A stretch of DNA of 35,275 nt from Thauera aminoaromatica S2 (GTDB lineage: Bacteria > Pseudomonadota > Gammaproteobacteria > Burkholderiales > Rhodocyclaceae): positions 1-35,275 of the forward strand of contig NZ_AMXD01000025.1 in the NCBI RefSeq assembly GCF_000310185.1, given 5' to 3'. Shown here in pieces: positions 7,495 through 32,410 of this stretch (position 1 is its first letter; the number at the start of each line of letters is the position of its first letter). A program made the translations under genes and the position numbers. Under the pieces are notes generated by a model. That model searched no databases. It was not told where the DNA came from and saw nothing but the letters and a program-made list of their open reading frames with translations.

Positions 7495-8141
7495 TGCTTT
7501 TTCTCCCAGAGATAGAAGAAGCCGGGGCCGGTGCCGAGCTCCTCGTGCATGCGGAAATGCTCGTTCTCGCGCAGCAGGCGCGAGGCCTTGCTGTCGGGGT
7601 CGTCGATGTCGCCGAAGGTGAGCGCGCTGGCGATGCAGGCGTTGGCGCAGGCCGGGGTGGCGTCGGGATCGACGCCGGGCACGAGGCCGTGGGCGTGGCC
7701 GTAGTCGATGCGGTCGGAGCAGAAGGTGCACTTGGTGGCCACGCCGATGCGCGCCGGGTCGGTACGCTTCACCTCGTTGGCCATCTTGCCCTCGCCATAG
7801 GCGGGGGTGTCGCGGGTGACCTTGTAGCGTGCGTTGTACGGACAGGCGACCGAACAGTAGGCACAGCCGATGCACAGGTCGTAGTCGATGGTGACCAGAC
7901 CGTCGGCGCGCTTCTTGGTGGCGGTGGTGGGGCACACCGTCTCGCACGGCGGCTCGTCGCAGTGCTGGCATCCCACCGGGACGAAGCTGCGGGTGACGTC
8001 GGGGAATTCGCCCGCCTCGACGTCGAGCACCCAGCGCCATTGCACGCCCGGCGGGGTGGCGTTGGTGTGCTTGCAGGCGGCGGTGCAGGTCTGGCAGCCG
8101 ACGCAGCGGCGCAGGTCGACCACCATGGCGTAGCGGGTCAT
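7491..8141 (-). CDS. padC: Phenylacetyl-CoA:acceptor oxidoreductase iron-sulfur subunit
   Basis: A 216-residue four-cluster ferredoxin of the DmsB/NrfC/PsrB type. Cysteine groups begin at Cys13, 16, 19 and 23 (CVGCQTCTAAC) and continue with CQHCDEPPCETVCP, CIGCAYCSVACP, and the split pair CTFC plus CANAC near the C-terminus. There is room for four [4Fe-4S] clusters forming a wire from the molybdenum subunit PadB to the membrane subunit PadD. There is no signal peptide, which fits a cytoplasm-facing enzyme with a CoA substrate. Start and stop both overlap neighbours through ATGA, so padB, padC and padD are translationally coupled. Confidence 0.92.
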   Translation of the reverse strand: MTRYAMVVDLRRCVGCQTCTAACKHTNATPPGVQWRWVLDVEAGEFPDVTRSFVPVGCQHCDEPPCETVCPTTATKKRADGLVTIDYDLCIGCAYCSVACPYNARYKVTRDTPAYGEGKMANEVKRTDPARIGVATKCTFCSDRIDYGHAHGLVPGVDPDATPACANACIASALTFGDIDDPDSKASRLLRENEHFRMHEELGTGPGFFYLWEKKQ

Positions 8142-10879
8142 TGGGCACCTCCGATGCGCTTGATCGACACCGGCACGATGTCGGCGGCCGAACCGGTGGC
8201 GTCGGTCAGGTCCATCAGCATCGGCACCAGGGCGTTCATGCTGGGGACGTCGAAGTCCTTCGCGTAGGGCGTGATCCAGTGGTCGAACTGACCCACCATC
8301 AGCAGGGTGTCGGGGCGGATGCCCTGGCGCAGCACGACGCGACCGCGGGTCTCGCGCAGCGGCGAGCGCACCTCGACGAGGTCGCCGTCCTCGATGCCGA
8401 GCTTGCGTGCGGCCGTCGGGTTCATGATCACGCCGCGGTGGCCCTTCACGTTGGCGGCCACCTCGCGCACCATCTGCAGGCTGACGTTGCCGCCCCAGGA
8501 GTACTGCATGCTGCGCGCGGTGAGCAGCCAGAACGGGAAGTCCTCGTCGCGCCCGCCCAGGTTGGAGATCACCGCGTGCTTGATGAGGTGGGAGAAGTCG
8601 TGGAACTCGGGCAGCGGGCGGTATTCGGTGAGCTGGCGGTCCCACCAGTCGATGCCGGATTCGTGCAGGCGGCGGCCGAGTTCCTCGCCGATGCGGTAGA
8701 TGCGCTCCTGGTAGGGCATCTCGAAGCGCAGCCCCTGGTCGACCAGGTGGGGATAGAGATACCACTGCAGGCGCGGATACTTGATGGTGCGGAAGCCGTG
8801 CTCCTTCCACCACTCCAGCCCGTGGTCCTCGGCGCCTTCGGTGAGCTCGGCGCTGGCCGCGCGGCAGCTCGCGTCCCAGATCTCCTCGACCCCGTAGGCG
8901 TGGTCGGGCTGCAGCGAGAAATCGTAGTTCGGCCCCTTCAGCGGCACGCCTGCGGCGCCGCGGTTGATCGCCTTGTTGTACGGCTCGAGGATGCCCGCGC
9001 GGCGGGCCAGTTCGGTGCTGATCCAGGTGAAGTCGCGGGTGTCGCCCTGCGTCGGCACGACCGGTTGGCGCAGCGCGAAGCCCTGGTGGTCCCAGAACTG
9101 CTCGACGTACTTGGTGCCACCGATGCGCAGCATCTGCAGGCCTTCGAGGTCGGTGCAGTCGGGCAGCAGGATGTCGGCGAAGTGGTTGGTCTCGTCGCGG
9201 GTGTAGGTGAAGGCGACCACGAAGGGGAACTTCGCCACCGCCTCGGCGACCTGGGGCGTGTCCCAGAACGAGATCACCGGGTTGGTGCGGTAGAAGAACC
9301 AGACGTCGGGCTGGGTGGGCTCGGGGAAGCTCTCGAAGCCGTGACGCTGCTGCATCCAGGCCAGGTGGGTGGGGCCGAGCGCGGCGCTCCACGCCGAGTT
9401 GGCCACCAGCGGCACCAGGGTGCGGTTGGCGTTGCGGATCTGCGGGCGCGAGATCCAGTTTTCCTTGTCGGTCGGGTTGAACGGATAGTCCATGAACCCG
9501 TCGACGCCCGGCTTGGCGCTGCTCTGGCGGTCGTTGGCTGGGCGGTTCAGGCGCACCGCGGTGCCGATGGTGCCGCCGGGCACGTCGAGCGCGCCGACCA
9601 GGCAGGCCATCAGCGTGCGCGCCCAGCAGCAGTCGTAGCCGCCCCAGCCGTTATTCACCGTCTTGCCGAGCGTGACCGCCACCGGGCGATAGGGCAGGGT
9701 GCGGCCCTCGATCTCGATCGTCGCGCCGATCTCGGCATGGTCGAGGTATTCGTTGGCGATGCGGCGGATGGTCGCCGCCGGTACGTCGCAGATGCCCTGC
9801 GCCCACTCCGGGGTGAAGGTGCGCTCGTGGTCGAGCAGCTTGCCGAAGGCACTGCGCACCGGCGCGGCCTCATGGGTGACGAGTTCCTGGTCGGGCAGCA
9901 CCTCGAGGCCGGAGGCGAGGAAGTCGCCGTCGAGCGCGGGATCGATGCCGGGGGTGTCGAAGACGACGGCCTTGCCGGACTTGAGGTCCCACACCAGCGG
10001 CTTGCGGGTGTCGGGATCGCGCAGGTAGAAGCCATTGGGCGCCACCAGGTAGGGCGACGCCGTCATGTGCTTGAGGAAATCGATGTCCAGCCGCGAGCGT
10101 GCGTTCTCGAACAGCATCACGTGGATCATCGCGTGCATGCAGGCGGCGTCGGTCTTGGGCTTGATCGGCAGCCACTCGGCGGAGCAACCGCCGGTGACCG
10201 ACAGGTGCGGCTCGACCTGCACGCGCTTGACGCCCTGCTCGACGCGTGCGGCGGCGTGGCGCCAAACGCCGCATACGCCGCCCGAGGCCTCGATGTTGCT
10301 GCCGAAGGACAGGATGTACTTGCTGCGCGGCGTGTCCGGACAGACGATGAAGGCGCGATGCCAGAGCTCGCCGTAGAGGTGCTCGGAGTGGTAGCACTTG
10401 ACGCCCTGGCCGCTGCCGAAGCTCATGTCCACCGGGCCCCAGGCCGCCAGCAGGGCGGGGAAGGTGCCCATGTAGGCGGTGGGCGTGCCGCCGCCGCCGA
10501 AGCTCGCCGCCACGCGCGGGTAGCCCGAGGCGTCGAGCAGGCCGGTCTCGCGGATGCCGCGCAGCTTGGCGGCGATGGTGTCGAGCGCCTCATCCCAGGA
10601 GATGGGCACGAAACGCGGGTCCTCGTGGCGCCCCTTCTTCGGGTTGGTGCGCTTCATCGGCTGCAGGACGCGGTTCGGGTTGTAGGTCTTCTGCACGAGG
10701 CCGAAGGCCTTCACGCAGACCCGGCCCGCGGCCGGATGCACGTCCTCGGCGTCGAAGTTCGGCTCGACGGCGGTCGCCACGCCGTCCTCGACCTTCACCT
10801 TGAGCAGGTCCGGCCCCGCCACGCACTGGTAACAGTAGGTGGCGACCTTGGTTGTGCCCTGTGGGCTGCTGACGGTCAT
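8138..10879 (-). CDS. padB: Phenylacetyl-CoA:acceptor oxidoreductase catalytic molybdopterin subunit
   Basis: The 913-residue catalytic subunit of the membrane-bound molybdenum-iron-sulfur enzyme that oxidises phenylacetyl-CoA by four electrons to phenylglyoxylate. Seen: an N-terminal cluster region with Cys16, Cys19 and Cys55 and the motif GRVCVKAFGLVQ, typical of DMSO-reductase-family enzymes. A conserved ILSFGSNIEASGG lies in the pterin-binding part, and a C-terminal molydopterin dinucleotide-binding domain begins near FWLLTARSMQYSWGGN. There is no twin-arginine leader, consistent with a cytoplasmic CoA-ester substrate. The third cysteine of the usual CxxCxxxC is absent (Pro23 at that place). 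The start ATG is preceded by GGAGGAG at good spacing. It is the first gene of the operon. Confidence 0.93.
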   Translation of the reverse strand: MTVSSPQGTTKVATYCYQCVAGPDLLKVKVEDGVATAVEPNFDAEDVHPAAGRVCVKAFGLVQKTYNPNRVLQPMKRTNPKKGRHEDPRFVPISWDEALDTIAAKLRGIRETGLLDASGYPRVAASFGGGGTPTAYMGTFPALLAAWGPVDMSFGSGQGVKCYHSEHLYGELWHRAFIVCPDTPRSKYILSFGSNIEASGGVCGVWRHAAARVEQGVKRVQVEPHLSVTGGCSAEWLPIKPKTDAACMHAMIHVMLFENARSRLDIDFLKHMTASPYLVAPNGFYLRDPDTRKPLVWDLKSGKAVVFDTPGIDPALDGDFLASGLEVLPDQELVTHEAAPVRSAFGKLLDHERTFTPEWAQGICDVPAATIRRIANEYLDHAEIGATIEIEGRTLPYRPVAVTLGKTVNNGWGGYDCCWARTLMACLVGALDVPGGTIGTAVRLNRPANDRQSSAKPGVDGFMDYPFNPTDKENWISRPQIRNANRTLVPLVANSAWSAALGPTHLAWMQQRHGFESFPEPTQPDVWFFYRTNPVISFWDTPQVAEAVAKFPFVVAFTYTRDETNHFADILLPDCTDLEGLQMLRIGGTKYVEQFWDHQGFALRQPVVPTQGDTRDFTWISTELARRAGILEPYNKAINRGAAGVPLKGPNYDFSLQPDHAYGVEEIWDASCRAASAELTEGAEDHGLEWWKEHGFRTIKYPRLQWYLYPHLVDQGLRFEMPYQERIYRIGEELGRRLHESGIDWWDRQLTEYRPLPEFHDFSHLIKHAVISNLGGRDEDFPFWLLTARSMQYSWGGNVSLQMVREVAANVKGHRGVIMNPTAARKLGIEDGDLVEVRSPLRETRGRVVLRQGIRPDTLLMVGQFDHWITPYAKDFDVPSMNALVPMLMDLTDATGSAADIVPVSIKRIGGAQ

Positions 10880-10943: not shown

Positions 10944-10956
10944 GGGATGAATCCTA
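10944..10956 (-). promoter_or_regulatory. Candidate pad operon promoter (-10 TAGGAT)
   Basis: On the minus strand the hexamer TAGGAT (10956-10951, four of six matches to TATAAT) lies so that a start at about 10944 puts the FNR-type site at 10979-10992 exactly at -41.5. That is the classical class II activator position. The resulting leader is about 65 bases. There is no good -35 hexamer at the right distance, as expected for an activator-dependent promoter. Inferred from spacing only. Confidence 0.5.
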
Positions 10957-10965
10957 GAACTTATG

Positions 10966-10979
10966 ACTGACCGGTCGGT
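10966..10979. promoter_or_regulatory. TetR-type palindrome ACTGACCGGTCGGT in the pad promoter
   Basis: The 14-mer is a near-perfect inverted repeat around ACCGGT, with one mismatched pair. It lies between the FNR-type site and the proposed -10 of the pad promoter, where a repressor would block RNA polymerase. Palindromes with an ACCGACCGGTCGGT core are typical TetR-family operators. From memory they resemble the sites of the phenylacetyl-CoA-responsive regulator PaaR in betaproteobacteria. Identity of the regulator is an inference. Confidence 0.55.
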
Positions 10980-10992
10980 TGATATTTGTCAA
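10979..10992. promoter_or_regulatory. FNR-type site TTGATATTTGTCAA upstream of padB
   Basis: This matches nine of the ten conserved bases of the FNR box TTGAT-N4-ATCAA; the single difference is G for A in the right half. It is placed for class II activation of the minus-strand pad promoter. In Azoarcus sp. CIB the FNR orthologue AcpR activates anaerobic benzoate genes from such sites, so oxygen control of pad is expected here. Confidence 0.65.
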
Positions 10993-10996
10993 ACAG

Positions 10997-11016
10997 TAAC
11001 GTTGACGTGAACGTAA
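10997..11016. promoter_or_regulatory. Pathway operator copy 1 (core ACGTTGACGTGAACGT)
   Basis: The core at 10999-11014 is an inverted repeat (ACGTT and AACGT around ACGT). It is 14/16 identical to the sites at 15378-15393 and 15498-15513. It contains TTGACG, a candidate -35 for the CBS-ACT gene, so a bound regulator would control that gene and sit just upstream of the pad promoter. Confidence 0.6.
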
Positions 11017-11030
11017 TTTTTTTGTGTAGA
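11002..11030 (+). promoter_or_regulatory. Candidate promoter for the CBS-ACT gene
   Basis: TTGACG at 11002-11007 and TGTAGA at 11025-11030 are separated by 17 bases and would start transcription near 11037, giving a leader of about 190 bases. The -35 element is embedded in operator copy 1, and operator copy 2 begins at the start site. Prediction from hexamers only. Confidence 0.4.
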
Positions 11031-11050
11031 GTTAACGTTAGCGTTAACTA
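11031..11050. promoter_or_regulatory. Operator copy 2 (GTTAACGTTAGCGTTAAC)
   Basis: An 18-base palindrome at 11031-11048 with one mismatched pair. Read from 11035 it also aligns to the ACGTT-type operator at 11 of 16 positions (ACGTTAGCGTTAAC). It is centred 33-36 bases from copy 1, about three helical turns, so paired binding is plausible. Confidence 0.5.
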
Positions 11051-11224
11051 TAGGCGCTGCTTGGGGATGTGGGTTTCCGATAAACTGCGTTCCAGCCGCA
11101 GATCCGGCGACCGCATGCGCGCTGGTCCGTGTCCGGCCGGGGCCGCGTCGCGTGCCCGCTATTCCTCTTGTGCTGTCTCGAACCCGCTGTTTACCGCTGT
11201 TTCTTCTTCCAACTGGAGTGACCC

Positions 11225-11878
11225 ATGTTCGTCGAAAACATCATGACCCGGGAGGTGCTGCACGTCGGTCCGGAGGCCTCTTTCTCGCAGGTCTCCGAGA
11301 TCATGCGGCTCAAGAAGGTGCGCCACGTGCCGGTGATCGACCAGGATCGCAAGGTGCTGGGCATCATCTCGCATCGCGACGTGCAGCGCGCCCAGCCGTC
11401 CATGATCACGACGCTCGACGTCGGCGAGGTGAAGTACCTGCTGTCCAAGATCACCGCGGCGGACATCATGCACAAGTCGGTGGTGAGCTGCTCGCCACGC
11501 ACGCAGATCGAGGAGGCCGCGCGCATGATGCGGCCCAAGAAGCTGGGCTGCCTCGTCGTGGTGGACGACGCCGGGCGCCTGGTGGGCATCGTCACCAGCG
11601 TGGACCTGCTCGATTTCTTCCTCGACATCACCGGCTGCTGGGTCGAGGGTGCGACGCGGATCACCGTGAAGTTGCAGGATCGCGCCGGCCAGCTCGCCGC
11701 GCTGCTCGCCTCGGTCAATGCGCAGGGCGGCTACATCGTCTCGGTGGTGTCGCCGCGCACGCCGCAGTCCGAGGGCTTGCGCACCGCGACCATCCGCTTC
11801 GAGGCCAAGGATGCCGGCGCGGTCGTGCAGGGCCTGCGCGAGGCGGGCTACGAGCTGAGCGTCGATCAGACGGCGTGA
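11225..11878 (+). CDS. CBS-CBS-ACT domain protein (AcuB-like)
   Basis: A 217-residue soluble protein. Two CBS domains span roughly residues 1-57 (MFVENIMTREVLHV, then LGIISHRDVQRAQP) and 76-134 (ITAADIMHKSVVSC, then GIVTSVDLLDFF). A C-terminal ACT domain covers about 144-215 (TRITVKLQDRAGQLAALLASV). CBS pairs usually bind adenine nucleotides and ACT domains small ligands such as amino acids, so this looks like a metabolite-sensing regulator without an enzymatic or DNA-binding part. A GGAG ribosome site precedes ATG 11225. It is transcribed divergently from the pad operon and shares its operator region, suggesting co-regulation. The target is unknown. A role in sensing energy charge for the ATP-consuming benzoyl-CoA route is only a guess. 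Confidence 0.85.
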   Translation: MFVENIMTREVLHVGPEASFSQVSEIMRLKKVRHVPVIDQDRKVLGIISHRDVQRAQPSMITTLDVGEVKYLLSKITAADIMHKSVVSCSPRTQIEEAARMMRPKKLGCLVVVDDAGRLVGIVTSVDLLDFFLDITGCWVEGATRITVKLQDRAGQLAALLASVNAQGGYIVSVVSPRTPQSEGLRTATIRFEAKDAGAVVQGLREAGYELSVDQTA

Positions 11879-11883
11879 GATGT

Positions 11884-11929
11884 GAGGCGTCAGGCCTGGG
11901 GGGGTGAAGACCTCTCGGCCTGGCGCCTC
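11884..11929. repeat. Inverted repeat of the TGAGGCG family after the CBS-ACT gene
   Basis: GAGGCGTCAGGCC (11884-11896) can pair with GGCCTGGCGCCTC (11917-11929) across 20 bases, with a single G-U pair. It begins six bases after the CBS-ACT stop codon. No T-run follows, so it is not a standard intrinsic terminator, though it may protect the transcript end. Related sequence occurs at 12082-12120 and 30426-30533. Confidence 0.55.
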
Positions 11930-12045
11930 GTCACATCCGGTCGCAGTGTCGTCGGTCGACGGCGGACGGGCGCGGCTCGAGATCCTTCGCTCGGGATTTC
12001 CCTTCATCCTCTCCGCAGGCATCTTTCGCCCGACCTCCAAAAGCC

Positions 12046-12077
12046 GATGCGCGCGCTGGTCTCCCAGCGCGCGCATC
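12046..12077. terminator. 14-bp perfect hairpin between convergent genes
   Basis: GATGCGCGCGCTGG at 12046-12059 and its exact complement at 12064-12077 are separated by a four-base loop. The element lies between the converging CBS-ACT gene and the ferritin-like gene, where a bidirectional terminator is expected. There is no T-tract on either side, so termination is likely but not certain. Confidence 0.5.
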
Positions 12078-12117
12078 GCTCCTGGCGCCTCATGTCTGGC
12101 GCCTTACCCCTTGCTCC

Positions 12118-12657
12118 TCAACCCTGCAGCAAGGGCGGATCGGGGTCCTCGTTCCAGCCCTTGGGCGGGGGCTGGAAGCGGGCGAGCCAGCCTTCGAGCA
12201 GGGTGACGTGCTCGCGCTCGGTCTCGCACAGTTCGGCGGCGAGCTTGCGGATGTCCTCGCGCTCGGACTGGGCGACCAGGCGGTCGTAGAAGTCCACCCC
12301 GCGGCGCTCGGCCTCGAGCGCCATCGCGATCGCCTGGTAGGGATGCATCATGTAGTGCAGGCCTTCCGCCGACACCGACGGCGCCTCCGGGCTCTCGGGG
12401 GCTTCCCAGGAGTATTCCCACGGTGCGATGTGGGGCAGGGTGTGTCCCTCGCTGATGTCGTTGACGTTGTCGACGTGCAGCTTCTCGATCTCGGCCAGCT
12501 TGCGGAAGAGCACGGCGACGTCGCGGTTGTTGTGGGTCTCCATCTGGTCGGCGAGTGCCTCGTAGCGCTCGACCGCCTCGACTTCCATCGCCAGCGCATG
12601 GGCCAGCAGGTGCTCCACCGAGTGGATGCCGGTTTCCTGCGGATCGGGTTTGCTCAT
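12118..12657 (-). CDS. Ferritin-like (rubrerythrin-family) diiron protein
   Basis: A 179-residue protein predicted to be a mostly helical four-helix bundle. Metal-ligand candidates are all in place: Glu25/27/30 in helix 1 (AMEVEAVERYEAL), an ExxH at Glu58-His61 (EIEKLHV), Glu115/117 in helix 3 (ALEAERRGVDFYD), and a second ExxH at Glu147-His150 (ETEREHV). This is the pattern of ferritin-like/rubrerythrin proteins; the rubredoxin domain of true rubrerythrins is missing. A proline-rich linker (WEAPESPEAPS) separates the helix pairs. Its start overlaps the korB stop by ATGA, so it belongs to the korAB operon. Likely function, inferred: removal of peroxide or oxygen, or iron handling, near the oxygen-sensitive 2-oxoglutarate:ferredoxin oxidoreductase. 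Confidence 0.8.
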   Translation of the reverse strand: MSKPDPQETGIHSVEHLLAHALAMEVEAVERYEALADQMETHNNRDVAVLFRKLAEIEKLHVDNVNDISEGHTLPHIAPWEYSWEAPESPEAPSVSAEGLHYMMHPYQAIAMALEAERRGVDFYDRLVAQSEREDIRKLAAELCETEREHVTLLEGWLARFQPPPKGWNEDPDPPLLQG

Positions 12658-13493
12658 AACACGAACTCCTTCTCGAGATCTGCAACTGAATCGACGCTCG
12701 CCGGCTGCCCGGGCTGGAAGGGCTTGCGGCTGCCGCGGAAGAGCACGCCGACGTTGAAGCCATCGTCGGACATCAGGCGGCGCGCGGCGCGCGCGGGGTC
12801 GTCGGTCGGGTCGACCGCGGCGGGATGCACCATGTCCTTCCAGTCGCGCTGCTCGGGACGGAAGGTGACGCAGGGGCTGAGCAGCTGCACGAAGGAGAAG
12901 CCGGGATGGCGGATCGCCTCGGTGATGAGCTTCGCGGTGCCGTTCTGGTCGCCGGAGAAGCCGCGGGCGATGAAGTTCGCGCCCGCGGCGAGTGCGATCA
13001 CCAGCGGGTGGAAGGGGTTGATGCCGGTGCCCTGCGGGGTGAGCTTGCTCTTCTCCCAGTCGGGCGCGGTGGTCGGCGAGGCCTGGCCCTTGGTCATGCC
13101 GTAGACCTCGTTGTCCATGACGATGTAGGTCATGTCGACGTTGCGCCGGCAGGCGTGCATGAAGTGGTTGCCGCCGATCGAGAAGCCGTCGCCGTCGCCG
13201 CCGGAGGCGATCACGGTGAGCTCGGGGCGGGATACCTTGATGCCGGTGGCGATCGGCAGGGCGCGGCCATGCACGCCGTGGAAGCCGAACACGTTGGTGT
13301 AGGCGGGCAGGCGCGAGGAGCAGCCGATGCCGGAAACGAGGGCGACGCGCTCGGGCGGGATCGACAGCTCGGCGAGCGCCTTGGTGATCGAGCCGAGCAC
13401 CGAGTAATCGCCGCAGCCCGGACACCAGACGGGCTTGACCTCGGACTTGTAGTCGCGCGCGGAGTAGCTCGGGCAGGTGGATGTGGCTTCCAT
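12654..13493 (-). CDS. korB: 2-oxoglutarate:ferredoxin oxidoreductase beta subunit
   Basis: The 279-residue TPP-binding subunit. Near the N-terminus CPGCGDYSVLGSITKAL carries the first cluster cysteines, followed by SGIGCSSRLPAY and a third conserved cysteine region. GGDGDGFSIGGNHFMHACRRN is the TPP diphosphate/Mg motif and NEVYGMTKGQASPT follows at the usual spacing. These are hallmarks of KorB/PorB two-subunit enzymes. The enzyme oxidises 2-oxoglutarate to succinyl-CoA and reduces ferredoxin. In Thauera aromatica this supplies low-potential electrons to benzoyl-CoA reductase. ATG 13493 lies two bases after the korA stop. The longer upstream reading belongs to korA in another frame. Confidence 0.93.
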   Translation of the reverse strand: MEATSTCPSYSARDYKSEVKPVWCPGCGDYSVLGSITKALAELSIPPERVALVSGIGCSSRLPAYTNVFGFHGVHGRALPIATGIKVSRPELTVIASGGDGDGFSIGGNHFMHACRRNVDMTYIVMDNEVYGMTKGQASPTTAPDWEKSKLTPQGTGINPFHPLVIALAAGANFIARGFSGDQNGTAKLITEAIRHPGFSFVQLLSPCVTFRPEQRDWKDMVHPAAVDPTDDPARAARRLMSDDGFNVGVLFRGSRKPFQPGQPASVDSVADLEKEFVL

Positions 13494-13495
13494 GT

Positions 13496-15214
13496 TCAGC
13501 TCCAGTCGGCCAGTTGGCGGAAGATTTCGTTCGGACGGATCGGCAGCGGGCCGGGCCGGTGGAAGGCGCGCACGCTCCCCGGGAGGTCGTAGTGGGCGCG
13601 CAGGTAGCGGTGGAACTGGGCGCCATGGCTCTGCTCGACCACGAGCACGCGCGCCACGCCCGCGAGCGCGGCGGCGAGCTGCTCCGGACGCACCGGCGAG
13701 ATCAGGCGGATCGACACCAGGCGGGCACGCCCGCCGCTGGCGCGGAAGCGCTCGAGCGCCTCGCGCACCGGCCCGGTGGTGGACCCCCAGGTCAGCACGG
13801 CGATGTCGCCGTCGCCCTCGATGTCGGCCCAGTGCGTGCCGTAGTCGTGCAGGGCGAGCTTGCGCAGACGCTTGTCGAGCTGGGCGCTGTGGTCGGCCGC
13901 GCCGCTGGACGGCGTGCCGAACTCGTTGTGCTCGAGGCCGTCGGCGGTGTACTGGTAGCCCTTCATGCCGGGTACGGCCATCGGCGAGACGCCCGACGCG
14001 GTGTTGGTGTAGCGGCGGTAGCGTTCGGCCGCCTCGCCCTCGGGCATCAGGCGGACCGCGCGCAAGCCGGGATCGGCGGGCGGCGAGATCGTCGCCCGGC
14101 TCTGGCCGAGGGACTGGTCGGAGAGCACGATCGCGGCGGTCTGCAGGGTATCGGCGAGATGGACCGCCCACTGCGTGGCGAAGGCGCAGTCGGCGAGCGA
14201 GTTGGGCGCCACCACCAGGTGCGGGGCGTCGCCGTGCAGGCCGTAGAGCGCGATGTTGAGGTCGCTCTGCTCGGATTTCACCGGGATGCCGGTGGAGGGG
14301 CCGCCGCGCATCACGTTGACCACGGTGATCGGGGTCTCCGAGGCGACCGCGAGGCCGAGCGATTCGGTCATCAGCGCCAGGCCGGGGCCGGAGGTGGCGG
14401 TCAGCGAGGGCACGCCGGCGTAGGAAGCGCCGATGATCTGGTTGATCGAGGCGAGCTCGTCCTCGGCCTGCACCAGCACGCCGCCGAGCTTGGCGAGGTT
14501 GGGTGCGAGCCACTCCAGCACCTCGGTGCCCGGGGTGATCGGATAGGCGGCGACGAAGCGGATGCCGCCGCGCACCGCGCCGAGACCGGCGGCCTCGTTG
14601 CCGGTGATGCTCCACAGGCGCTCGCTCTGGCCCTGGGCGGTGGCCAGGCGGGGGCAGGGCGGCAGGTCGGCCGCGAAGGCCATGCCTGCACGCACCGATG
14701 CCTCGCTGGCGGTGCGCGCGGCCTCTCCCTTCTTGGCGAGCGAGTCGCGGACCACACCGAGCACGGCGTCCTCGGGAAGGCCGACGAGGCCGGCGACCGC
14801 GCCCAGGGCGATCATGTTGGGGCGCCCGCCCTCGATCGTCTTGGCCATCTTCTTGAACGGGATGTCTGCCGACCGCGTGCCCTTGGCGCGGATGGCCTCG
14901 GGGAATTCGCCGCCGTCGGGATCGCCGACGACCAGGCTATCGGCGGTCATCGGGATCTCGGCGGAGAAGCGCCCGACGTTCTCCCAGTCGATGGCGACCA
15001 GCAGATCATATTGATCGTCGTGCGACTGCACCGGCGACGTAGACAGACGCATCATCGCGGCGGCCTCGCCGCCGCGGATCTGCGCGCCCGACGAGCGGGT
15101 CATGTAGGCATACCAGCCGGCACGGCCGGCGGCGTCGAGCAGCATGTTGCCTGCGGTCATCACCCCCGCGCCGCCGCTGCCGGCGAATGTTATCGATACC
15201 GATCGGGCTGTCAT
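13496..15214 (-). CDS. korA: 2-oxoglutarate:ferredoxin oxidoreductase, fused gamma-alpha subunit
   Basis: A 572-residue protein with an N-terminal gamma domain (about residues 1-190; FAGSGGAGVMTAGNMLLDAA) fused to an alpha domain (about 200-572). The alpha domain shows FVAAYPITPGTEVLEWLAP, QAEDELASINQIIGASYAG and TATSGPGLALMTESLG. The gamma-alpha fusion is usual for the two-subunit Kor type. With KorB it generates reduced ferredoxin from 2-oxoglutarate. I placed the start at ATG 15214 because GGAG lies seven bases upstream and the family begins with this glycine-rich strand. The open frame continues far upstream only as an antisense shadow of had. The first gene of a three-gene operon, divergent from had. 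Confidence 0.93.
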   Translation of the reverse strand: MTARSVSITFAGSGGAGVMTAGNMLLDAAGRAGWYAYMTRSSGAQIRGGEAAAMMRLSTSPVQSHDDQYDLLVAIDWENVGRFSAEIPMTADSLVVGDPDGGEFPEAIRAKGTRSADIPFKKMAKTIEGGRPNMIALGAVAGLVGLPEDAVLGVVRDSLAKKGEAARTASEASVRAGMAFAADLPPCPRLATAQGQSERLWSITGNEAAGLGAVRGGIRFVAAYPITPGTEVLEWLAPNLAKLGGVLVQAEDELASINQIIGASYAGVPSLTATSGPGLALMTESLGLAVASETPITVVNVMRGGPSTGIPVKSEQSDLNIALYGLHGDAPHLVVAPNSLADCAFATQWAVHLADTLQTAAIVLSDQSLGQSRATISPPADPGLRAVRLMPEGEAAERYRRYTNTASGVSPMAVPGMKGYQYTADGLEHNEFGTPSSGAADHSAQLDKRLRKLALHDYGTHWADIEGDGDIAVLTWGSTTGPVREALERFRASGGRARLVSIRLISPVRPEQLAAALAGVARVLVVEQSHGAQFHRYLRAHYDLPGSVRAFHRPGPLPIRPNEIFRQLADWS

Positions 15215-15365
15215 CCTCGTTCTCCAATGTTCGACCTTCGACCGGCGGGTGCCGGCGCGGTCCTGTTCAGGGCCCATGCGCGCGTCCCCCTCGGGTGAAG
15301 CGGGCACGGCGCCGACCGGAGGCTGGTTGGGTTGCAGCGCCGCCTTCGCAGCGCTCACCTCCGAT

Positions 15366-15378
15366 GTGTCGAAGTTTA
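15366..15378 (-). promoter_or_regulatory. Candidate korA promoter (-10 TAAACT)
   Basis: On the minus strand TAAACT (15378-15373, four of six matches to TATAAT) would give a start near 15366. The FNR-like palindrome centred at 15407.5 then lies at -41.5, the class II activator position, and operator copy 3 fills the space between them. Inferred from spacing. Confidence 0.45.
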
Positions 15379-15393
15379 CGTTGACGCAAACGT
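15378..15393. promoter_or_regulatory. Pathway operator copy 3 (ACGTTGACGCAAACGT)
   Basis: 14/16 identical to operator copy 1 upstream of the pad operon, and extended on both sides by T- and A-rich flanks (TTT on the left, CAA on the right). It overlaps the proposed -10 to -27 region of the korA promoter, a position suited to repression. Confidence 0.6.
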
Positions 15394-15400
15394 CAATCTG

Positions 15401-15414
15401 TTGACTTTGGTCAA
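15401..15414. promoter_or_regulatory. FNR-like palindrome TTGACTTTGGTCAA
   Basis: A perfect 5+5 inverted repeat with a 4-base spacer, the geometry of FNR/CRP-family boxes. It differs from TTGAT-N4-ATCAA by one symmetrical substitution in each half. Its centre (15407.5) is at class II distance from a korA -10 on one side and close to it for a had -10 (TTTAAC, 15435-15440) on the other. Which family member binds is uncertain. Confidence 0.5.
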
Positions 15415-15434
15415 CTGCCCTCCTGCCGGCCTGA

Positions 15435-15440
15435 TTTAAC
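15435..15440 (+). promoter_or_regulatory. Candidate had-bcr operon promoter (-10 TTTAAC)
   Basis: TTTAAC matches four of six bases of TATAAT and lies about 28 bases right of the FNR-like palindrome, compatible with an activator-dependent promoter starting near 15447 and an 85-base leader. The evidence is weak because neighbouring hexamers score similarly. Confidence 0.3.
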
Positions 15441-15497
15441 TTTGCATCCAACGCGGCGGCAGGAAGCAGTCGATCCAGTCGCCAATCAGATCGATCA

Positions 15498-15513
15498 AAG
15501 TTGACGCGAACGT
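15498..15513. promoter_or_regulatory. Pathway operator copy 4 (AAGTTGACGCGAACGT)
   Basis: 14/16 identical to operator copy 1 and continued by AAAC as in a longer palindrome. It lies directly upstream of the had ribosome site (GGAAGGAG, 15518-15525), downstream of the proposed start of transcription. It could act as a roadblock site or mark a second, closer promoter. Confidence 0.55.
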
Positions 15514-15532: not shown

Positions 15533-16600
15533 ATGAGCACCAAACCGTATCGCTGGATGATGGTGGAGCCGGGTCGGCCGATGGTCCGCACCGAGTTCGA
15601 GATCGGCGAGCTGGCCGCCGACCAGGTGGTGGTCGAGGTCGCCGGCTGCGGCGTCTGCCACACCGATCTCGGCTACTACTACGACGGCGTGCGCACCAAC
15701 CAGCCGCTGCCGCTCGCGCTCGGCCACGAGATCAGCGGCCGGGTGGTGGGCGCGGGCAGCGCGGCGGGGCAGTGGGTCGGCCGCGCGGTGGTCGTGCCGG
15801 CGGTGATGCCGTGCGGGACCTGCGAGCTCTGCACGTCGGGACACGGCACCATCTGCCGCGCCCAGGTGATGCCCGGGAACGACATCCAGGGCGGCTTCGC
15901 CTCCCATATCGTGGTGCCGGCGCGCGGCCTGTGCGCGGTCGATGAGAAGCGCCTCGCCGCCGCCGGACTGCAACTCGCCGACGTGTCGGTGGTGGCCGAC
16001 GCGGTCACCACGCCCTACCAGGCGGTCACGCAGGCCGGAGTCGAGCCTGGCGACGTCGCGATCGTGATCGGGGTGGGCGGCGTCGGCGGCTACGCGGTGC
16101 AGATCGCCAACGCCTTCGGTGCGAGCGTGGTGGCGATCGACGTCGATCCGGCCAAGCTCGAATTGATGTCGAAGTACGGTGCGGCGCTGACGCTCAATGC
16201 GCGCGAGGTGACCGGACGCGACCTCAAGAAGGCGATCGAGGCGCACGCCAAGGCCAACGGCCTGCGCACCACGCGCTGGAAGATCTTCGAATGCTCGGGC
16301 AGCGGTGCCGGCCAGACCAACGCCTATAGCCTGATCAATCACGGCGCGACGCTCGCGGTGGTCGGCTTCACGATGGACAAGGTCGAGGTTCGCCTCTCCA
16401 ACCTGATGGCCTTCCATGCCCGCGCGCTCGGCAACTGGGGCTGCCTGCCCGAGTACTACCCGGCCGCGCTCGACCTGGTGCTCGACGGCCGCATCAACCT
16501 CGCCAATTTCGTCGAGCGCCACCCGCTCGCGCAGATCAACGAGGTCTTCGAGGCGGCTCACGCGCACAAGCTCAGCCGCCGCGCGATCCTGACCCCCTGA
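15533..16600 (+). CDS. had: 6-hydroxycyclohex-1-ene-1-carbonyl-CoA dehydrogenase
   Basis: A 355-residue zinc-containing alcohol dehydrogenase that oxidises 6-hydroxycyclohex-1-ene-1-carbonyl-CoA to the 6-oxo compound with NAD+. Catalytic zinc ligands are Cys42 (CGVCHTD) and His65-Glu66 (GHE). Structural zinc cysteines are Cys94, 97, 100 and 108 (PCGTCELC, then TIC). The Rossmann motif GVGGVGG is followed by an aspartate at VVAIDVDP, which indicates NAD preference. GGAAGGAG stands eight bases before ATG 15533. It is the first gene of the ring-reduction operon. The next two genes, oah and dch, act just after and just before it, which makes the specific assignment firm. Confidence 0.93.
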
Positions 16601-16652: not shown

Positions 16653-17786
16653 ATGAAAGAAACGACGCAACGCGTGATCGATCAGACTGCGCCCAAGCAC
16701 TTGGTCGACCATAACCTGGTGCCCGAGACGGTGGTGCCGGGCGTGATCTACGAGAAGCGCCCCGCGCGCAATCTCCAGGGCGAGGTGGTGCCGGGCCTGT
16801 ACAACGCCTGGATCTGGCTGGACAACCCCAAGCAGTACAACTCCTACACCACCGACATGGTGAAGGGCCTGATCCTTGCCTTCCGTGCCGCGTCCTGCGC
16901 CCGCGACGTCGCCACGGTGGTGTTCACCGCGGTCGGCGACAAGGCCTTCTGCACCGGCGGCAACACCAAGGAATACGCCGAGTACTACGCCGGCAACCCG
17001 CAGGAATACCGCCAGTACATGCGTCTTTTCAACGACATGGTGTCGGCGATCCTGGGCTGCGACAAGCCGGTGGTGTGCCGCGTCAATGGCATGCGCATCG
17101 GTGGCGGCCAGGAGATCGGCATGGCGGCGGACTTCACCGTCGCCCAGGACCTGGCCAACTTCGGCCAGGCCGGCCCCAAGCACGGCTCGGCCGCGATCGG
17201 CGGTGCGACCGACTTCCTGCCGGTGATGATCGGCTGCGAGCAGGCGATGGTGTCCGGCACCCTGTGCGAGCCGTTCTCGGCGCACAAGGCCTACCGCCTC
17301 GGCATTTCCTCGCAGATCGTCCCCGCGCTCAAGATCGATGGCAAGTTCGTCGCCAACCCGCTGGTCATCACCGACCGCTACCTCGACGAGTTCGGCCGCA
17401 TCATCCACGGCGAGTTCAAGACCGGCGACGAACTGGCCGCCGGCAAGGAGCTGCTCAAGCGCGGCGAGATCGACCTTTCCCTGCTCGACGAGGCGGTCGA
17501 GAAGCTGTGTGCCAAGCTGATCTCCACCTTCCCCGAGTGCCTGACCAAGAGCTTCGAGGAGCTGCGCAAGCCCAAGCTCGATGCCTGGAACCGCAACAAG
17601 GAGAACAGCCGCGCCTGGCTCGCGCTCAACATGATGAACGAGGCCCGCACCGGCTTCCGCGCCTTCAACGAGGGTACCAAGGAGACCGGCCGCGAGATCG
17701 AGTTCACCGACCTCCGCCAGGCGCTCGCCGTCGGCACGCCCTGGACGCCCGAGCTGATCGAAAGCCTGATGCCGGGGGCGAAGTGA
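16653..17786 (+). CDS. oah: 6-oxocyclohex-1-ene-1-carbonyl-CoA hydrolase (ring-opening)
   Basis: A 377-residue crotonase-superfamily enzyme that adds two waters to 6-oxocyclohex-1-ene-1-carbonyl-CoA and cleaves the C-C bond to give 3-hydroxypimelyl-CoA. The crotonase core is visible: FTAVGDKAFCTGGNTKEYAEYY for the first oxyanion-hole segment and GMRIGGGQEIGMAADFTVAQ for the second, followed by GPKHGSAAIGGATDFLPV. It is longer than ordinary enoyl-CoA hydratases because of an N-terminal ~35-residue extension and a long C-terminal helical part, both usual for Oah. The ribosome site GAGGAG precedes ATG 16653. The stop overlaps the dch start by one base. Confidence 0.93.
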   Translation: MKETTQRVIDQTAPKHLVDHNLVPETVVPGVIYEKRPARNLQGEVVPGLYNAWIWLDNPKQYNSYTTDMVKGLILAFRAASCARDVATVVFTAVGDKAFCTGGNTKEYAEYYAGNPQEYRQYMRLFNDMVSAILGCDKPVVCRVNGMRIGGGQEIGMAADFTVAQDLANFGQAGPKHGSAAIGGATDFLPVMIGCEQAMVSGTLCEPFSAHKAYRLGISSQIVPALKIDGKFVANPLVITDRYLDEFGRIIHGEFKTGDELAAGKELLKRGEIDLSLLDEAVEKLCAKLISTFPECLTKSFEELRKPKLDAWNRNKENSRAWLALNMMNEARTGFRAFNEGTKETGREIEFTDLRQALAVGTPWTPELIESLMPGAK

Positions 17787-18562
17787 TGGGCGAGGCGATC
17801 AACCCGCTCAAGGCCTGGCTGGAGCGCGACGGCGGCCTGCTCCGCCTGCGCCTGGCGCGGCCCAAGGCGAACATCGTCGATGCCGCGATGATCGGCGCGC
17901 TGCAGCAGGCGCTCGGCGCCCACCTCGGTTCGCCCGCGCTGCGCGCGGTGCTGCTCGATGCCGAGGGCCCGCACTTCAGCTTCGGCGCCAGTGTGGACGA
18001 GCACATGCCCGAGCAGTGCGCGCAGATGCTGAAGACCCTGCATGCGCTGGTGCGGCAGATGCTCGACAGCCCGGTGCCGATCCTGGTCGCGATCCGCGGC
18101 CAGTGCCTCGGCGGCGGGCTCGAGGTGGCGGCGGCGGGCAACCTGCTCTTCGTGGCGCCGGATGCGCGCCTGGGGCAGCCGGAGATCCGCCTCGGCGTGT
18201 TCGCGCCTGCGGCCTCCTGCCTGCTGCCGCCGCGCGTCGGGCAATCGCGTGCCGAGGAGCTGCTGTTCTCGGGGCGCAGCATCGACGGCGCCGAGGCGCA
18301 CCGGATCGGGCTGGCCGACGTGCTCGCCGACGACCCCGAGGCGGCCGCGCTGAAGTGGTACGACGAACATCTTGCTGCGCTGAGCGCCAGCTCGCTGCGT
18401 TTCGCGGTTCGGGCCGCACGCTGCGACCGGGTGCCGGCGATCAAGCAAAAACTGGAAACCGTGGAGGCCATGTATCTCGAGGAGCTGATGGCCAGCCACG
18501 ATGCGGTGGAAGGTCTACGGGCCTTTCTTGAGAAGCGTTCTGCAAACTGGGAGAACCGTTGA
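17786..18562 (+). CDS. dch: Cyclohexa-1,5-diene-1-carbonyl-CoA hydratase
   Basis: A 258-residue crotonase-fold hydratase that converts the product of benzoyl-CoA reductase into 6-hydroxycyclohex-1-ene-1-carbonyl-CoA. Crotonase signatures are LDAEGPHFSFGASVDEHMP (first oxyanion-hole strand) and AIRGQCLGGGLEVAAAGNLL (second). Past residue 130, GQPEIRLGVFAPAASCLLP stands where classical enoyl-CoA hydratases carry the catalytic glutamates. The start is ATG 17786 in TGATG, one base overlapping the oah stop. A much longer in-frame reading starting inside oah is rejected. The order oah-dch-bcrC matches the known Thauera arrangement. Confidence 0.92.
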   Translation: MGEAINPLKAWLERDGGLLRLRLARPKANIVDAAMIGALQQALGAHLGSPALRAVLLDAEGPHFSFGASVDEHMPEQCAQMLKTLHALVRQMLDSPVPILVAIRGQCLGGGLEVAAAGNLLFVAPDARLGQPEIRLGVFAPAASCLLPPRVGQSRAEELLFSGRSIDGAEAHRIGLADVLADDPEAAALKWYDEHLAALSASSLRFAVRAARCDRVPAIKQKLETVEAMYLEELMASHDAVEGLRAFLEKRSANWENR

Positions 18563-18564
18563 CC

Positions 18565-19725
18565 ATGAGTACGGCAGACATCATCGCGCGCTGTGAAGCG
18601 CTCTACGAAGACCTCGATTTCACCGCCGCAAGGAAGTGGAAGGAGGCCGACCCCTCGCGCAAGGTAATCGCCTACATGCCGGTGTATGTGCCGCGCGAGA
18701 TCATCCACGCCGCGGGCATGCTCCCGCTCGGCATCATGGGCGGAGGCGACGGCCTGGAGGTGATCCACGGCGACGCCTACTACCAGAGCTACATCTGTCG
18801 CATCCCACGCTCGACCATCGAGCTGGGGCTGTCCAAGCGCATGGATTTCGTCGACGGCATGCTGTTTCCCAGCATCTGCGACGTGATCCGCAACCTGTCC
18901 GGCATGTGGAAGCTGCTGTTCCCGGGCAAGTACGTGCGCTACTTCGACGTGCCGCAGAACTATCGCGACGACGTCGGTGGCAGCTACTACACCAACGAGC
19001 TGAACGAACTGCGTGAAGGCCTCGAGCACCTCTCCGGGCGCAAGATCACCGACGACGCGCTGCGTGCCTCGATCGCGGTCTACAACGAGAACCGCAGGCT
19101 GGTGCAGGCGGTGTACGGCATGCGTTCCCGCGAGCCGTGGAAGGTGCCCTCGTCCGAAGTCTATCTGCTGATGCGCGCCGGCCTCGTGCTGCCGGTGGAA
19201 GAGCACAACCAGATGCTGAGCGAATACCTCGCCGCAGCCGAGAATGTGAAGGCATCCAAGCGCGACAACTGCCGCGTGGTCATCAACGGCTCGTTCTGCG
19301 AGCAGCCGCCGCTCAACCTGATCAAGTCGATCGAGCTCGCCGGCTGCTACATCGTCGATGACGACTACATGATCGTGCATCGCTGGCTGCGCAATCCGGT
19401 CTCGACCGGCGGTGATCCGATGCAGAACCTGTCGCTCGCCTTCCTGCACGAGTCGATCGCCACCGCCGCGAAGTACGACGACAAGGAAGAGGACAAGGGC
19501 AAGTACCTGCTCGAGCAGGTTCGCAGCAACGCCGCGGAGGGTGTCATCTTCGCCGCGCCCAGCTTCTGCGACCCGGCCCTGCTCGAGCGGCCGATGCTGG
19601 CCGACCGCTGCTCCGAGCACAACGTCCCCTACATCTCGTTCAAGTACGCGGAAAACTCGGGCCAGATGCAGCCGATCCGCGAGCAGGCCGGCACCTTCGC
19701 CGACTCCATCAAACTCTGGAGCTAA
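18565..19725 (+). CDS. bcrC: Benzoyl-CoA reductase subunit C (gamma)
   Basis: A 386-residue subunit of the ring-reducing module of ATP-dependent benzoyl-CoA reductase, related to HgdB/FldC-type dehydratase subunits. Conserved cysteine contexts for the [4Fe-4S] cluster are SYICRIPRSTIELGL, FPSICDVIRNLSG and NGSFCEQPPLNLIK, with a further AAPSFCDPALLERPML near the C-terminus. With BcrB it binds benzoyl-CoA and carries out the two-electron Birch-like ring reduction. I prefer ATG 18565, with GGGAG about a dozen bases upstream, over an in-frame TTG two codons earlier that overlaps the dch stop. Ends two bases before bcrB. Confidence 0.94.
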   Translation: MSTADIIARCEALYEDLDFTAARKWKEADPSRKVIAYMPVYVPREIIHAAGMLPLGIMGGGDGLEVIHGDAYYQSYICRIPRSTIELGLSKRMDFVDGMLFPSICDVIRNLSGMWKLLFPGKYVRYFDVPQNYRDDVGGSYYTNELNELREGLEHLSGRKITDDALRASIAVYNENRRLVQAVYGMRSREPWKVPSSEVYLLMRAGLVLPVEEHNQMLSEYLAAAENVKASKRDNCRVVINGSFCEQPPLNLIKSIELAGCYIVDDDYMIVHRWLRNPVSTGGDPMQNLSLAFLHESIATAAKYDDKEEDKGKYLLEQVRSNAAEGVIFAAPSFCDPALLERPMLADRCSEHNVPYISFKYAENSGQMQPIREQAGTFADSIKLWS

Positions 19726-19727
19726 TC

Positions 19728-21026
19728 ATGAGCGCAGCCACCTCCCCCGAAGTCATCAAAGAACCCTCGATGGTGAAGCAGAAGGAGATGATCGCCGGCA
19801 ACTACGATCGTCTCACCGGCACCAAGGAGTCGGGCGAGAAGGTCGTGTCGACCTTCGTCCCGGGCAACCTGAACGAGCTGATCATGTGCTTCGACATGGT
19901 CAACAACCTGCCCGAGACCAACGCCATCCAGAACGGCATGCGCAAGGTTTCCGGCGGCATGATCATGGACGCCGAGAAGGCGGGCCACTCCGAGGACGTG
20001 TGCACCTACGTCAAGGCCGACATCGGCATGATGGGCCGCGGCAACATCGCGCCCAACGGCAAGCCGATGCCCGCGCCGGACATGCTGCTGCTGTCCTACA
20101 CCGGCTGCTTCACCTTCATGAAGTGGTTCGAGCTGCTGCGCCACGAGTACAAGTGTCCGACGGTGATGCTGCAGATCCCGTATCAGGGCGACGGCAAGAT
20201 CACCAAGAACATGCGTGACTTCGTGGTCAAGCAGCTCAAGGAAGAAGTCATCCCGATGTTCGAGAAGGTCTCGGGCGTCAAGTTCGACATCGACCGCCTG
20301 CGCGAATACCTGAAGAACTCGGCCAAGGCCGAGGACAACCTGGTCTGGGTGCTGGAGAGCGCGAAGAACCGTCCCTCGCCGATCGATGCCTACTTCGGCG
20401 GCGTGTACTACATCGGCCCGATGTTCACCGCCTTCCGCGGCACCACCGACGCGGTCGAGTACTACGACCTGGTGCGCAAGGAGATCGAGCAGCGCATCCG
20501 CGAGGGCAAGGGCCCGATCACGCCCGAAGGCGACATGAAGGAAGAGAAGTACCGCCTGGTCGTCGAGGGTCCGCCGAACTGGACCAGCTTCCGCGAGTTC
20601 TGGAAGCTCTTCTACGACGAGGGCGCGGTGGTGGTGGCGAGCTCCTACACCAAGGTGGGCGGCCTCTACGACCAGGGCTTCCGTCACGACCCGAACGATC
20701 CGCTGGGCACGCTGGCCGACTACTGCCTGGGTTGCTACACCAACAACAACCTGCCGCAGCGCGTCGAACTGCTCGAGAAGTACATGAACGACTACCAGGC
20801 CGATGGCCTGCTGATCAACTCGATCAAGAGCTGCAACAGCTTCTCGGCGGGTCAGCTGCTGATGATGCGCGAGATCGAGAAGCGGACCGGCAAGCCGGCG
20901 GCGTTCATCGAGACCGACCTCGTCGATCCGCGCTACTTCTCCCACGCAAACGTCAAGAACCGTCTGGAAAGCTACTTCCAGATGGTCGATCAGAAACGCA
21001 GCGGCGCGTCGCTGGCAGCCGCGTAA
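19728..21026 (+). CDS. bcrB: Benzoyl-CoA reductase subunit B (beta)
   Basis: A 432-residue partner of BcrC in the substrate-binding and ring-reduction module. Cysteine-containing conserved segments are [31 protein letters not shown] and [17 protein letters not shown], the pattern of HgdA/HgdB-like proteins of the FldB/FldC family. ATG 19728 follows the bcrC stop by two bases and its ribosome site GGAG lies inside the end of bcrC. Assignment to benzoyl-CoA reductase rather than a 2-hydroxyacyl-CoA dehydratase rests on the neighbouring pair of different ASKHA ATPases and on had, oah and dch. Confidence 0.94.
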
Positions 21027-21036
21027 GGAGCGAACC

Positions 21037-22353
21037 ATGGAATGTTTCGTCGGAATTGATCTGGGGTCCACCACGACCAAGGCGGTCGTCATGGACGACA
21101 AGGGGCAGGTGCTCGGTCGCGGCATCACCAACTCGCGCTCGAACTATGACACCGCCGCACGCGTCTCCAAGCTCGAGGCGTTCATCGATGCGCGCCTGAG
21201 CCTGATCCGTCGCGAGCTCGAGAAGGTGCCGGCCGTCGCCGGTCGGGTAGACGAGATCCTCGCCGGCCTGACGCGCAACTTCCGCCGCGAGCAGTTCGTC
21301 GAGCAGCTCGGCGACCTCGAGCAGACCTGCATCGCCAACGTCGAAGGCCCGCGCTTCGCCGGCAAGGAAAAAGTGATCGTCGGTGCGCTGACCGAAGTCT
21401 TCCGCCGCCTGCGCGAGGAAGAAGCCGACAAGCTGTTCGCACCCACGGCGCAGCGCAAATCGGACTTCTTCCGCGATCTGGCCGGTTCGCGCTTCATGCA
21501 GATCGGTGAGGAAGTGGCGCGCGATGCCGGGATCCCCTTCGACACCCTGCTGCACATGTACGACAAGTCGATCATCGAGGTCGAGAACCGTCCGCCTTCG
21601 GGTGACATGAACCGCAAGTTCCGCACCGCGATGGAGCGGGTTCGTGGGGAGATGTCCAGCGCCCTCGACACCGCCGCGCTCGGCGCGCCGATCGATGCGG
21701 CGCTCGATGTGGACATGGTCGAGCGCTATGTGGTCGGCACCGGCTACGGCCGCGTCCGCCTGCCCTTCCCGAAGGAGCACATCCGCTCCGAGATCCTCTG
21801 CCACGGCCTGGGCGCCCACCTGATGTATCCGAAGACCCGCACGGTGCTCGACATCGGCGGCCAGGACACCAAGGGCATCCAGATCGACGAGAAGGGCATC
21901 GTGGTGAACTTCCAGATGAACGACCGCTGTGCCGCCGGCACCGGCCGCTATCTGGGCTACGTCGCCGACGAGATGAACATGGGCCTGCACGAACTCGGCC
22001 CGCTCGCGATGAAGGCGACCAAGTCGATCCGCATCAACTCGACCTGCACCGTGTTCGCCGGCGCCGAGCTGCGCGACCGCCTGGCGCTGGGCGACAAGCG
22101 CGAGGACATCCTCGCCGGCCTGCACCGCGCCATCATGCTGCGCGCGATGTCGATCATCTCGCGCTCGGGCGGCATCACCGACGAGTTCACCTTCACCGGC
22201 GGCGTGGCCAAGAACGAGGCCGCAGTCAAGGAGTTGCGCCAGCTCGTCAAGGAAAACTACGGGGAGGTGAAGATCAACATCGACCCCGATTCGATCTATA
22301 CCGGTGCGCTTGGGGCTTCCGAATTCGCCCGTCGCGCCGTCGTGGAGGCTTGA
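21037..22353 (+). CDS. bcrA: Benzoyl-CoA reductase ATPase subunit A (alpha)
   Basis: The 438-residue larger subunit of the ATP-driven electron activation module, in the BadF/BcrA/HgdC ASKHA fold. Nucleotide-binding motifs are [13 protein letters not shown] (residues 6-18), [13 protein letters not shown] and [15 protein letters not shown]. Cluster cysteines lie in [15 protein letters not shown] and [13 protein letters not shown]. BcrA and BcrD share a bridging [4Fe-4S] cluster and hydrolyse ATP as electrons pass from ferredoxin to BcrBC. The ~150-residue stretch between the first two ATPase motifs is an insertion typical of BcrA compared with BcrD. AAGGAG precedes the ATG. Confidence 0.94.
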
Positions 22354-22355
22354 AA

Positions 22356-23204: not shown

Positions 23205-23229
23205 AACCAGCCTACAGGAGGAAGCCATC

Positions 23230-23472
23230 ATGGCCCTGCTCATCAATGACGACTGCACCGCGTGCGATGCCTGTGTCGAGGAGTGCCCGAACGAGGCGAT
23301 CACCGCCGGCAACCCGATCTACGTGATCGATCCGGGCAAGTGCTCCGAGTGCGTCGGTGCCTTCGACGAGCCGCAGTGCAAGCTCGTCTGCCCGGCCGAC
23401 TGCATCAAGGATCACCCGGACTACCGCGAATCGCAGGACGAACTGCAGGCCAAGTACGACAGCCTGCACTGA
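23230..23472 (+). CDS. fdx: 2[4Fe-4S] ferredoxin, electron donor to benzoyl-CoA reductase
   Basis: An 80-residue ferredoxin. Cluster I uses Cys9, 12, 15 and a remote cysteine; cluster II uses Cys38, 41, 50 and a remote cysteine. The eight residues between Cys41 and Cys50 (VGAFDEPQ), an extra Cys58, and a C-terminal helix (YRESQDELQAKYDSLH) mark the Allochromatium/Alvin type with very negative potential. It links KorAB to BcrCBAD. A strong ribosome site AGGAGG precedes ATG 23230. It follows bcrD by 25 bases. Confidence 0.93.
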   Translation: MALLINDDCTACDACVEECPNEAITAGNPIYVIDPGKCSECVGAFDEPQCKLVCPADCIKDHPDYRESQDELQAKYDSLH

Positions 23473-23995: not shown

Positions 23996-24030
23996 GTTCA
24001 CGTCCGGAAACGACAACCTGGAGATCAGCG

Positions 24031-32400: not shown

Positions 32401-32410
32401 AGCCTGAACC

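Follow-up and report, generated by a model that had tools for sequence, protein, structure and literature searches.

According to published work, LiuR belongs to the MerR family and regulates how many Proteobacteria use branched-chain amino acids (PMC5343134), and it has a link to butyrate use in Rhodospirillum rubrum (PMC7238569). For aromatic acyl-CoA pathways, MbdR and PaaR are presented in passages of another paper as TetR-type repressors (PMC4424350). In Azoarcus sp. CIB, a box for AcpR lies at -41.5 of the bzd promoter, and the same source states that Thauera did not show this promoter organisation (PMC6678401). A further study reports no candidate BzdR or BoxR site upstream of the had-oah-dch-bcrCBAD-fdx operon in Thauera sp. 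MZ1T (PMC6449761).

Thauera serves as a model of how benzoyl-CoA is degraded anaerobically. In the open-licence literature searched, no paper was found that joins LiuR or a MerR protein to pad, kor, had-bcr or rnf; LiuR and Thauera occur together there in one monoterpene review, in passages that draw no link between them. The operator type reported here is therefore known, and its wiring is a new variant as far as that literature shows. Judging from sequence comparison, the operators probably belong to a LiuR-like MerR protein encoded on contig C94 of Thauera aminoaromatica S2, most likely a repressor that would work alongside an FNR/AcpR-type activator at a neighbouring box. This offers a candidate regulator, exact operators and a testable regulon for the control of the Thauera pathway.

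Probable operators and genes of the pad and had regions

The stretch of DNA analysed (the window) comprises positions 1-35,275 of contig NZ_AMXD01000025.1 (C25) of T. aminoaromatica S2 (GCF_000310185.1; G000), with genes called by a home-made codon-usage caller whose training set was the window genes. A molybdopterin oxidoreductase gene on the minus strand (8138..10879; profile and gene calls), which we take to be padB, is the first of a pad-like operon whose names are presumed from position. The plus-strand gene at 11225..11878, which diverges from padB, encodes a CBS-domain protein with an ACT-like C-terminus (Pfam CBS above cut-off, ACT-like below cut-off) and is present in six of 29 Thauera genomes, every one with had. 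Rubrerythrin-like, korB-like and korA-like genes follow on the minus strand (12118-15214; Pfam for the rubrerythrin and korA types), the last encoding a 2-oxoacid:ferredoxin oxidoreductase subunit (13496..15214; Pfam POR_N and POR, start codon checked). On the plus strand lie had, for 6-hydroxycyclohex-1-ene-1-carbonyl-CoA dehydrogenase (15533..16600; TIGR03201 above cut-off), and then oah, dch, bcrCBAD and ferredoxin genes (16653..23472; Oah TIGR03200 and BcrC TIGR02263 above cut-off), where the names korB, dch, bcrBAD and fdx are presumed from position. The rubrerythrin-like protein (12118-12657), whose gene shares bases with the end of the korB-like gene, may protect the ferredoxin-reducing enzyme from oxygen. 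Two adjacent proteins directly after the bcr-operon ferredoxin gene (23531-24576) look like acetyltransferases, and the proteins at the right side of the window (31258-34513), which resemble the flagellar export parts FlhB and FlhA, are apparently unrelated.

Four operator copies, predicted earlier at just these positions, were recovered in the two divergent intergenic regions. Copy 1, ACGTTGACGTGAACGT (10999..11014, plus strand), is a near-palindrome with seven of eight symmetric pairs, and a weaker copy 2, found by sequence match, lies in the same pad/CBS region (11035..11050, minus strand). Copies 3, ACGTTGACGCAAACGT (15378..15393, plus strand), and 4, AAGTTGACGCGAACGT (15498..15513, plus strand), occupy the korA/had intergenic region, copy 4 being 20 bp upstream of the had start codon. 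The pairwise agreement first given as 12 to 14 of 16 positions stands at its upper value for copies 1, 3 and 4, every pair of which is identical at 14 of 16, and its lower values do not recur among them; copy 2, in its minus-strand reading, shares 11, 12 and 13 of 16 positions with the main copies. None is a perfect palindrome (symmetric pairs number 5 to 7 of 8), and ACGT-like units recur in them at a six-base period. Allowing up to three mismatches, AMGTTGACGYRAACGT has seven strand matches in the window against 1.05 expected, a number reached by none of 100 shuffles. The sole such match outside both intergenic regions lies inside genes (12751-12766), and with that one addition the claim that the operators are confined to the pad/CBS-ACT and korA/had intergenic regions holds. 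The chosen sites are probably operators of a LiuR-like regulator.

Conservation in orthologous Thauera regions supports the original prediction. The pad/CBS operator is kept in all six genomes that have the CBS gene; in G001 and G003 it is shifted by 6 bp and the second copy is lost, the latter being found in the other four of the six at 51-57 bp from the FNR-like box described below. Both had-promoter sites are kept in all seven Thauera genomes with had, the distal one as an identical 16-mer in six of seven and in weaker form in G021, and the proximal one as ACGTTAACGTCAACGT, a perfect palindrome type, in G001, G003 and G021. Within about 4 kb of had loci in other genera (present in 7 of 398 other genomes searched in the order), nothing better than three mismatches was found, and the same was true of three Thauera had paralogue loci (51%, 53% and 66% identical). 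The wiring therefore looks confined to one Thauera had lineage. The host genome itself carries a second had-like gene, 53% identical and without the operator (L127; G000:C15:11445-12482).

Promoter architecture and proposed mode of action

Both promoters also hold an FNR-like box. The first, TTGATATTTGTCAA (10979..10992), is kept in six of six pad regions, and the second, TTGACTTTGGTCAA (15401..15414), in six of seven had promoters, being absent from G021. The window contains just two TTGAYNNNNRTCAA palindromes (four strand hits against 0.07 expected in 30 simulations), and both, with the form TTGAY-N4-RTCAA, fall in the pad and had promoters. The host genome has Crp/Fnr-type proteins, one of which (on C30) combines an FNR-like cysteine cluster, CxxCx5C, with an ETVSR-like recognition stretch. 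Operator centre and FNR-like box are 21 bp apart at pad, or 27 bp in G001 and G003, and 22 bp apart at had. If the boxes lie at -41.5, the operator centres would be placed near -62 and -63 of the transcription starts so predicted. On that assumption a possible padB -10 element, TAGGAT (10951..10956, minus strand), picked by eye from the alignment, fits its expected place, and TANNAT is present there in six of six aligned genomes; the had -10 candidate, TAACTT, is poor.

By the same -41.5 reckoning, the second had operator would fall near +57. At rnfA, the operator fills the 17-bp spacer between TTGTCG and TANNAT in three of three aligned genomes. An operator 20 bp before a start codon and another within a promoter spacer suit repression, and the predicted +57 and spacer positions make repression distinctly more probable than activation. 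An operator near -62 beside an FNR-like box could fit activation equally well. Many MerR proteins activate, and it is possible, though unlikely, that the same MerR protein at the same operator does so here, binding near -62 in its acyl-CoA-bound form and aiding an FNR-type protein and RNA polymerase. The spacing between operator and box, including the 27 bp of G001 and G003, brings the operator near the usual activator position if the box is at -41.5, but neither the second had operator nor an rnfA operator in a spacer of ordinary length sits easily with this arrangement.

The MerR protein would thus most likely be a repressor. A MerR dimer would bind the pad, kor/had, rnfA and merR sites, and its effect would change once one of the pathway's CoA thioesters builds up. 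At low oxygen the promoters would in turn be switched on by an FNR/AcpR-type activator bound to the TTGAY-N4-RTCAA box, so that pad, kor, had-bcr and rnf would be on only when low oxygen and the acyl-CoA signal coincide. The rnf link suggests that low-potential electron supply is switched on together with the ring reductase.

The candidate regulator and its relatives

The host genome gives five MerR_1 matches, all on contigs other than that of the window, which fits the earlier claim that the regulator is not encoded there. Among these five genes, the one at C94:2197-2652 (minus strand, convergent with rnf genes) alone has a site within three mismatches in its 2.2-3.2 kb locus, with the motif 115 bases from the longer start; no such site was found in the loci of the other four, searched over the same 2.2-3.2 kb. 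The C94 protein is a MerR protein by Pfam (PF13411, PF00376 and PF09278 above cut-off). A metal-type MerR was considered and rejected: none of the seven subtype A proteins, defined below, contains a cysteine, and metal-type MerR models all scored below cut-off.

A relative of this protein was found in 27 of 29 Thauera genomes, as subtype A (76-100% identical) in seven and as subtype B (47-53%) in 20; in G012 and G022 neither subtype was found at the cut-off used. Each subtype forms one group in a MerR tree (support 96 for A and 100 for B), which was a quick search with long branches and with L159 and G028 left out. Subtype A MerR and had occur in exactly the same seven of 29 genomes, and since these seven are related, the counts are not independent. 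On an aspS tree of the 29 genomes, the subtype A/had label changes four times, with at least two changes forced by well-supported branches, and the merR-had pairing is therefore not one clade. The site upstream of merR is kept in six of six subtype A genomes with upstream sequence (in G021 the contig ends there), and in seven of seven loci the gene is convergent with two genes, presumably rnfH and rnfE.

The subtype B locus is constant: merR is flanked by a hydrolase-like gene and a thioesterase gene, and in 20 of 20 Thauera loci the operator separates it from the latter. In G000 the corresponding place on C78 keeps a perfect operator (L020 8493-8508), and no MerR gene was found there with the home-made gene caller. 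This suggests that subtype A has come to use the sites of a resident MerR protein. On balance, and only somewhat beyond even chances, we favour the broader view that some Thauera have redeployed a LiuR-type regulator from the breakdown of amino acids and fatty acids as an acyl-CoA-sensing master switch of anaerobic aromatic metabolism, covering had-bcr, kor, rnf and pad, and taking the role that BzdR has in Azoarcus, with the had-linked subtype replacing the resident MerR and adopting its old sites.

The defining paper on LiuR is said to be that of Kazakov in 2009. The original prediction had noted a loose likeness to MerR-type operators of acyl-CoA regulators such as LiuR, and this proves close, as the motif lies upstream of LiuR-like MerR genes elsewhere and the C94 merR is the sole host MerR gene with a site. 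Relatives outside the genus were collected by scanning species genomes with the subtype A alignment and retaining the best 80 of 317 among the matches listed; four are Thauera loci, of which T. phenylacetica B4P supplies one, and the remaining 76 are 49-63% identical and nearly all from gammaproteobacteria. With a matrix trained on twelve Thauera sites, all from the genome of the window, a score of at least 13.2 was reached upstream of the MerR gene in 79 of the 79 loci with upstream sequence in this set (76 of them non-Thauera), against a downstream control of at most 9.2 in the same loci, and 10 of 1520 simulated upstream regions reached 13.2. A matrix-free search gave the 10-mer TTTACGTAAA in 68 of the 76 non-Thauera upstream regions among these best 80 of 317.

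The gene next to MerR in these 76 loci (best 80 of 317) begins like isovaleryl-CoA dehydrogenase in 70, one of which was compared in full with solved structures, and like a thiolase in five, with none found in one. In the loci viewed in detail, a strong site faces a thiolase gene transcribed divergently, and another site is found just ahead of merR. When a matrix was built from the non-Thauera sites, the four window operators ranked 1-4 (22.9, 20.8, 16.3 and 15.6), and 60 simulated windows reached 13.3 at most; because the Thauera matrix had served to choose the non-Thauera sites, this ranking tests consistency and is not independent. Across the 4.2-kb locus of the host's best isovaleryl-CoA dehydrogenase gene (C98, 74% identical), no site scores above 7.2. 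The regulator is therefore called LiuR-like and not LiuR, and the classical LiuR target falls outside this regulon.

Another regulator might read the sites, such as the TetR protein whose gene adjoins the C94 merR, the MerR link then being indirect, and we consider this very improbable. A TetR gene does adjoin merR in G000, G016, G013, G008 and L145, and the pad promoter has a separate TetR-like palindrome, ACTGACCGGTCGGT (10966..10979), which overlaps the FNR-like box by one base and resembles TetR operators. However, the operator motif accompanies a MerR gene in every one of the 20 subtype B loci and of the 76 non-Thauera loci (best 80 of 317), and no TetR gene was seen beside merR in G001 and G003. 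The corresponding pattern ACCGACCGGTCGGT is matched within two mismatches at pad in six of six genomes, and 10966-10979 is its only zero-mismatch place in the host genome. At one mismatch it gave eight strand matches in the genome against six in the control; of its three further places, those on C39 (L223) and C185 (L225) lie within predicted genes and that on C50 (L224) at a gene boundary, and for these reasons no TetR regulon was built. Moreover, no such box was found within two mismatches in 12 kb around the C94 TetR gene, and a link between palindrome and TetR protein is therefore not claimed.

The wider putative regulon and known systems

The LiuR-like MerR protein remains the preferred candidate, and the distribution of its motif reaches well past the window. 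In the host genome, the exact strand matches of RTTNACGYNAACGT number 14, and its reversed control has none; they lie at pad and had on C25 and at places on C20, C22, C26, C47, C56, C78 and C108. Summed over 29 Thauera genomes, it has 273 matches against 8 in the control, palindromic sites being counted on both strands, with at least one match in 29 of 29. The genome-wide scan proposed with the original prediction thus found a motif that is neither randomly placed nor unconserved in Thauera. At up to two mismatches, the 16-mer ACGTTNACGYNAACGT gave 61 strand matches in the host genome compared with 39 for the control, and loose matches can therefore mostly be put down to chance. That the sites as a whole are a chance likeness among short AT-rich words of a GC-rich genome, as this narrow excess might hint, is hardly credible and was rejected on the window shuffles and the exact counts in the genome and across the 29 genomes, with cross-species conservation and the intergenic position of 39 of 40 sampled sites also against it.

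Motif conservation at pad and had supports the single regulon predicted earlier for phenylacetate oxidation, ferredoxin reduction and ring reduction, and this putative regulon looks wider than was then seen, as rnfA and acyl-CoA- and PHA-related genes also have the predicted site. Host sites stand before rnfA, from which an Nfu-like gene diverges (C26), before an acyl-CoA synthetase gene with a nitroreductase-like gene diverging from it (C22), and before an enoyl-CoA hydratase gene (C56). A further site lies before a thioesterase gene with a divergent pair of hydrolase-like and PHA-synthase-like genes (C78), and others precede genes on C20, C47 and C108. The identity of rnfA was confirmed in the host genome, and all five subtype A genomes compared for it (G000, G001, G003, G008 and G013) keep its site. 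From other species, 40 regions were picked among the matches listed, up to G015 and for some of these sites only, and the best site was intergenic in 39 of them. Judged by protein start residues, the neighbours were SDR dehydrogenase (7), enoyl-CoA hydratase (7), acyl-CoA synthetase (6), cobalamin-adenosyltransferase-like with alaS (5), Mfd-like or hydrolase (4), sensor-like (3), rnfA (2), thioesterase (1) and others (5).

Set against the known systems, the pad palindrome at 10966-10979 could serve a TetR-type repressor such as MbdR or PaaR; it differs from the LiuR-type operator, and no TetR protein is tied to it. Like the BzdR/AcpR pair at the Azoarcus sp. CIB bzd promoter, as excerpts of its description present it (PMC6678401), the arrangement proposed here from sequence would combine an acyl-CoA-linked regulator with an FNR-type activator. 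Unlike that pair, the operator is by inspection not a TGCA-type BzdR site, and the candidate is a MerR and not an XRE protein. The nearest likeness is to LiuR, with which the C94 protein shares a similar length, the lack of cysteine, an operator beside its own gene and a motif that recurs upstream of LiuR-like genes in all 76 non-Thauera loci (best 80 of 317). Its predicted targets are different, being pad, kor/had-bcr, rnf and acyl-CoA/PHA-related genes, and the host's best isovaleryl-CoA dehydrogenase gene has no site. Compared with LiuR, the regulator looks to have changed its pathway and yet retained its operator.
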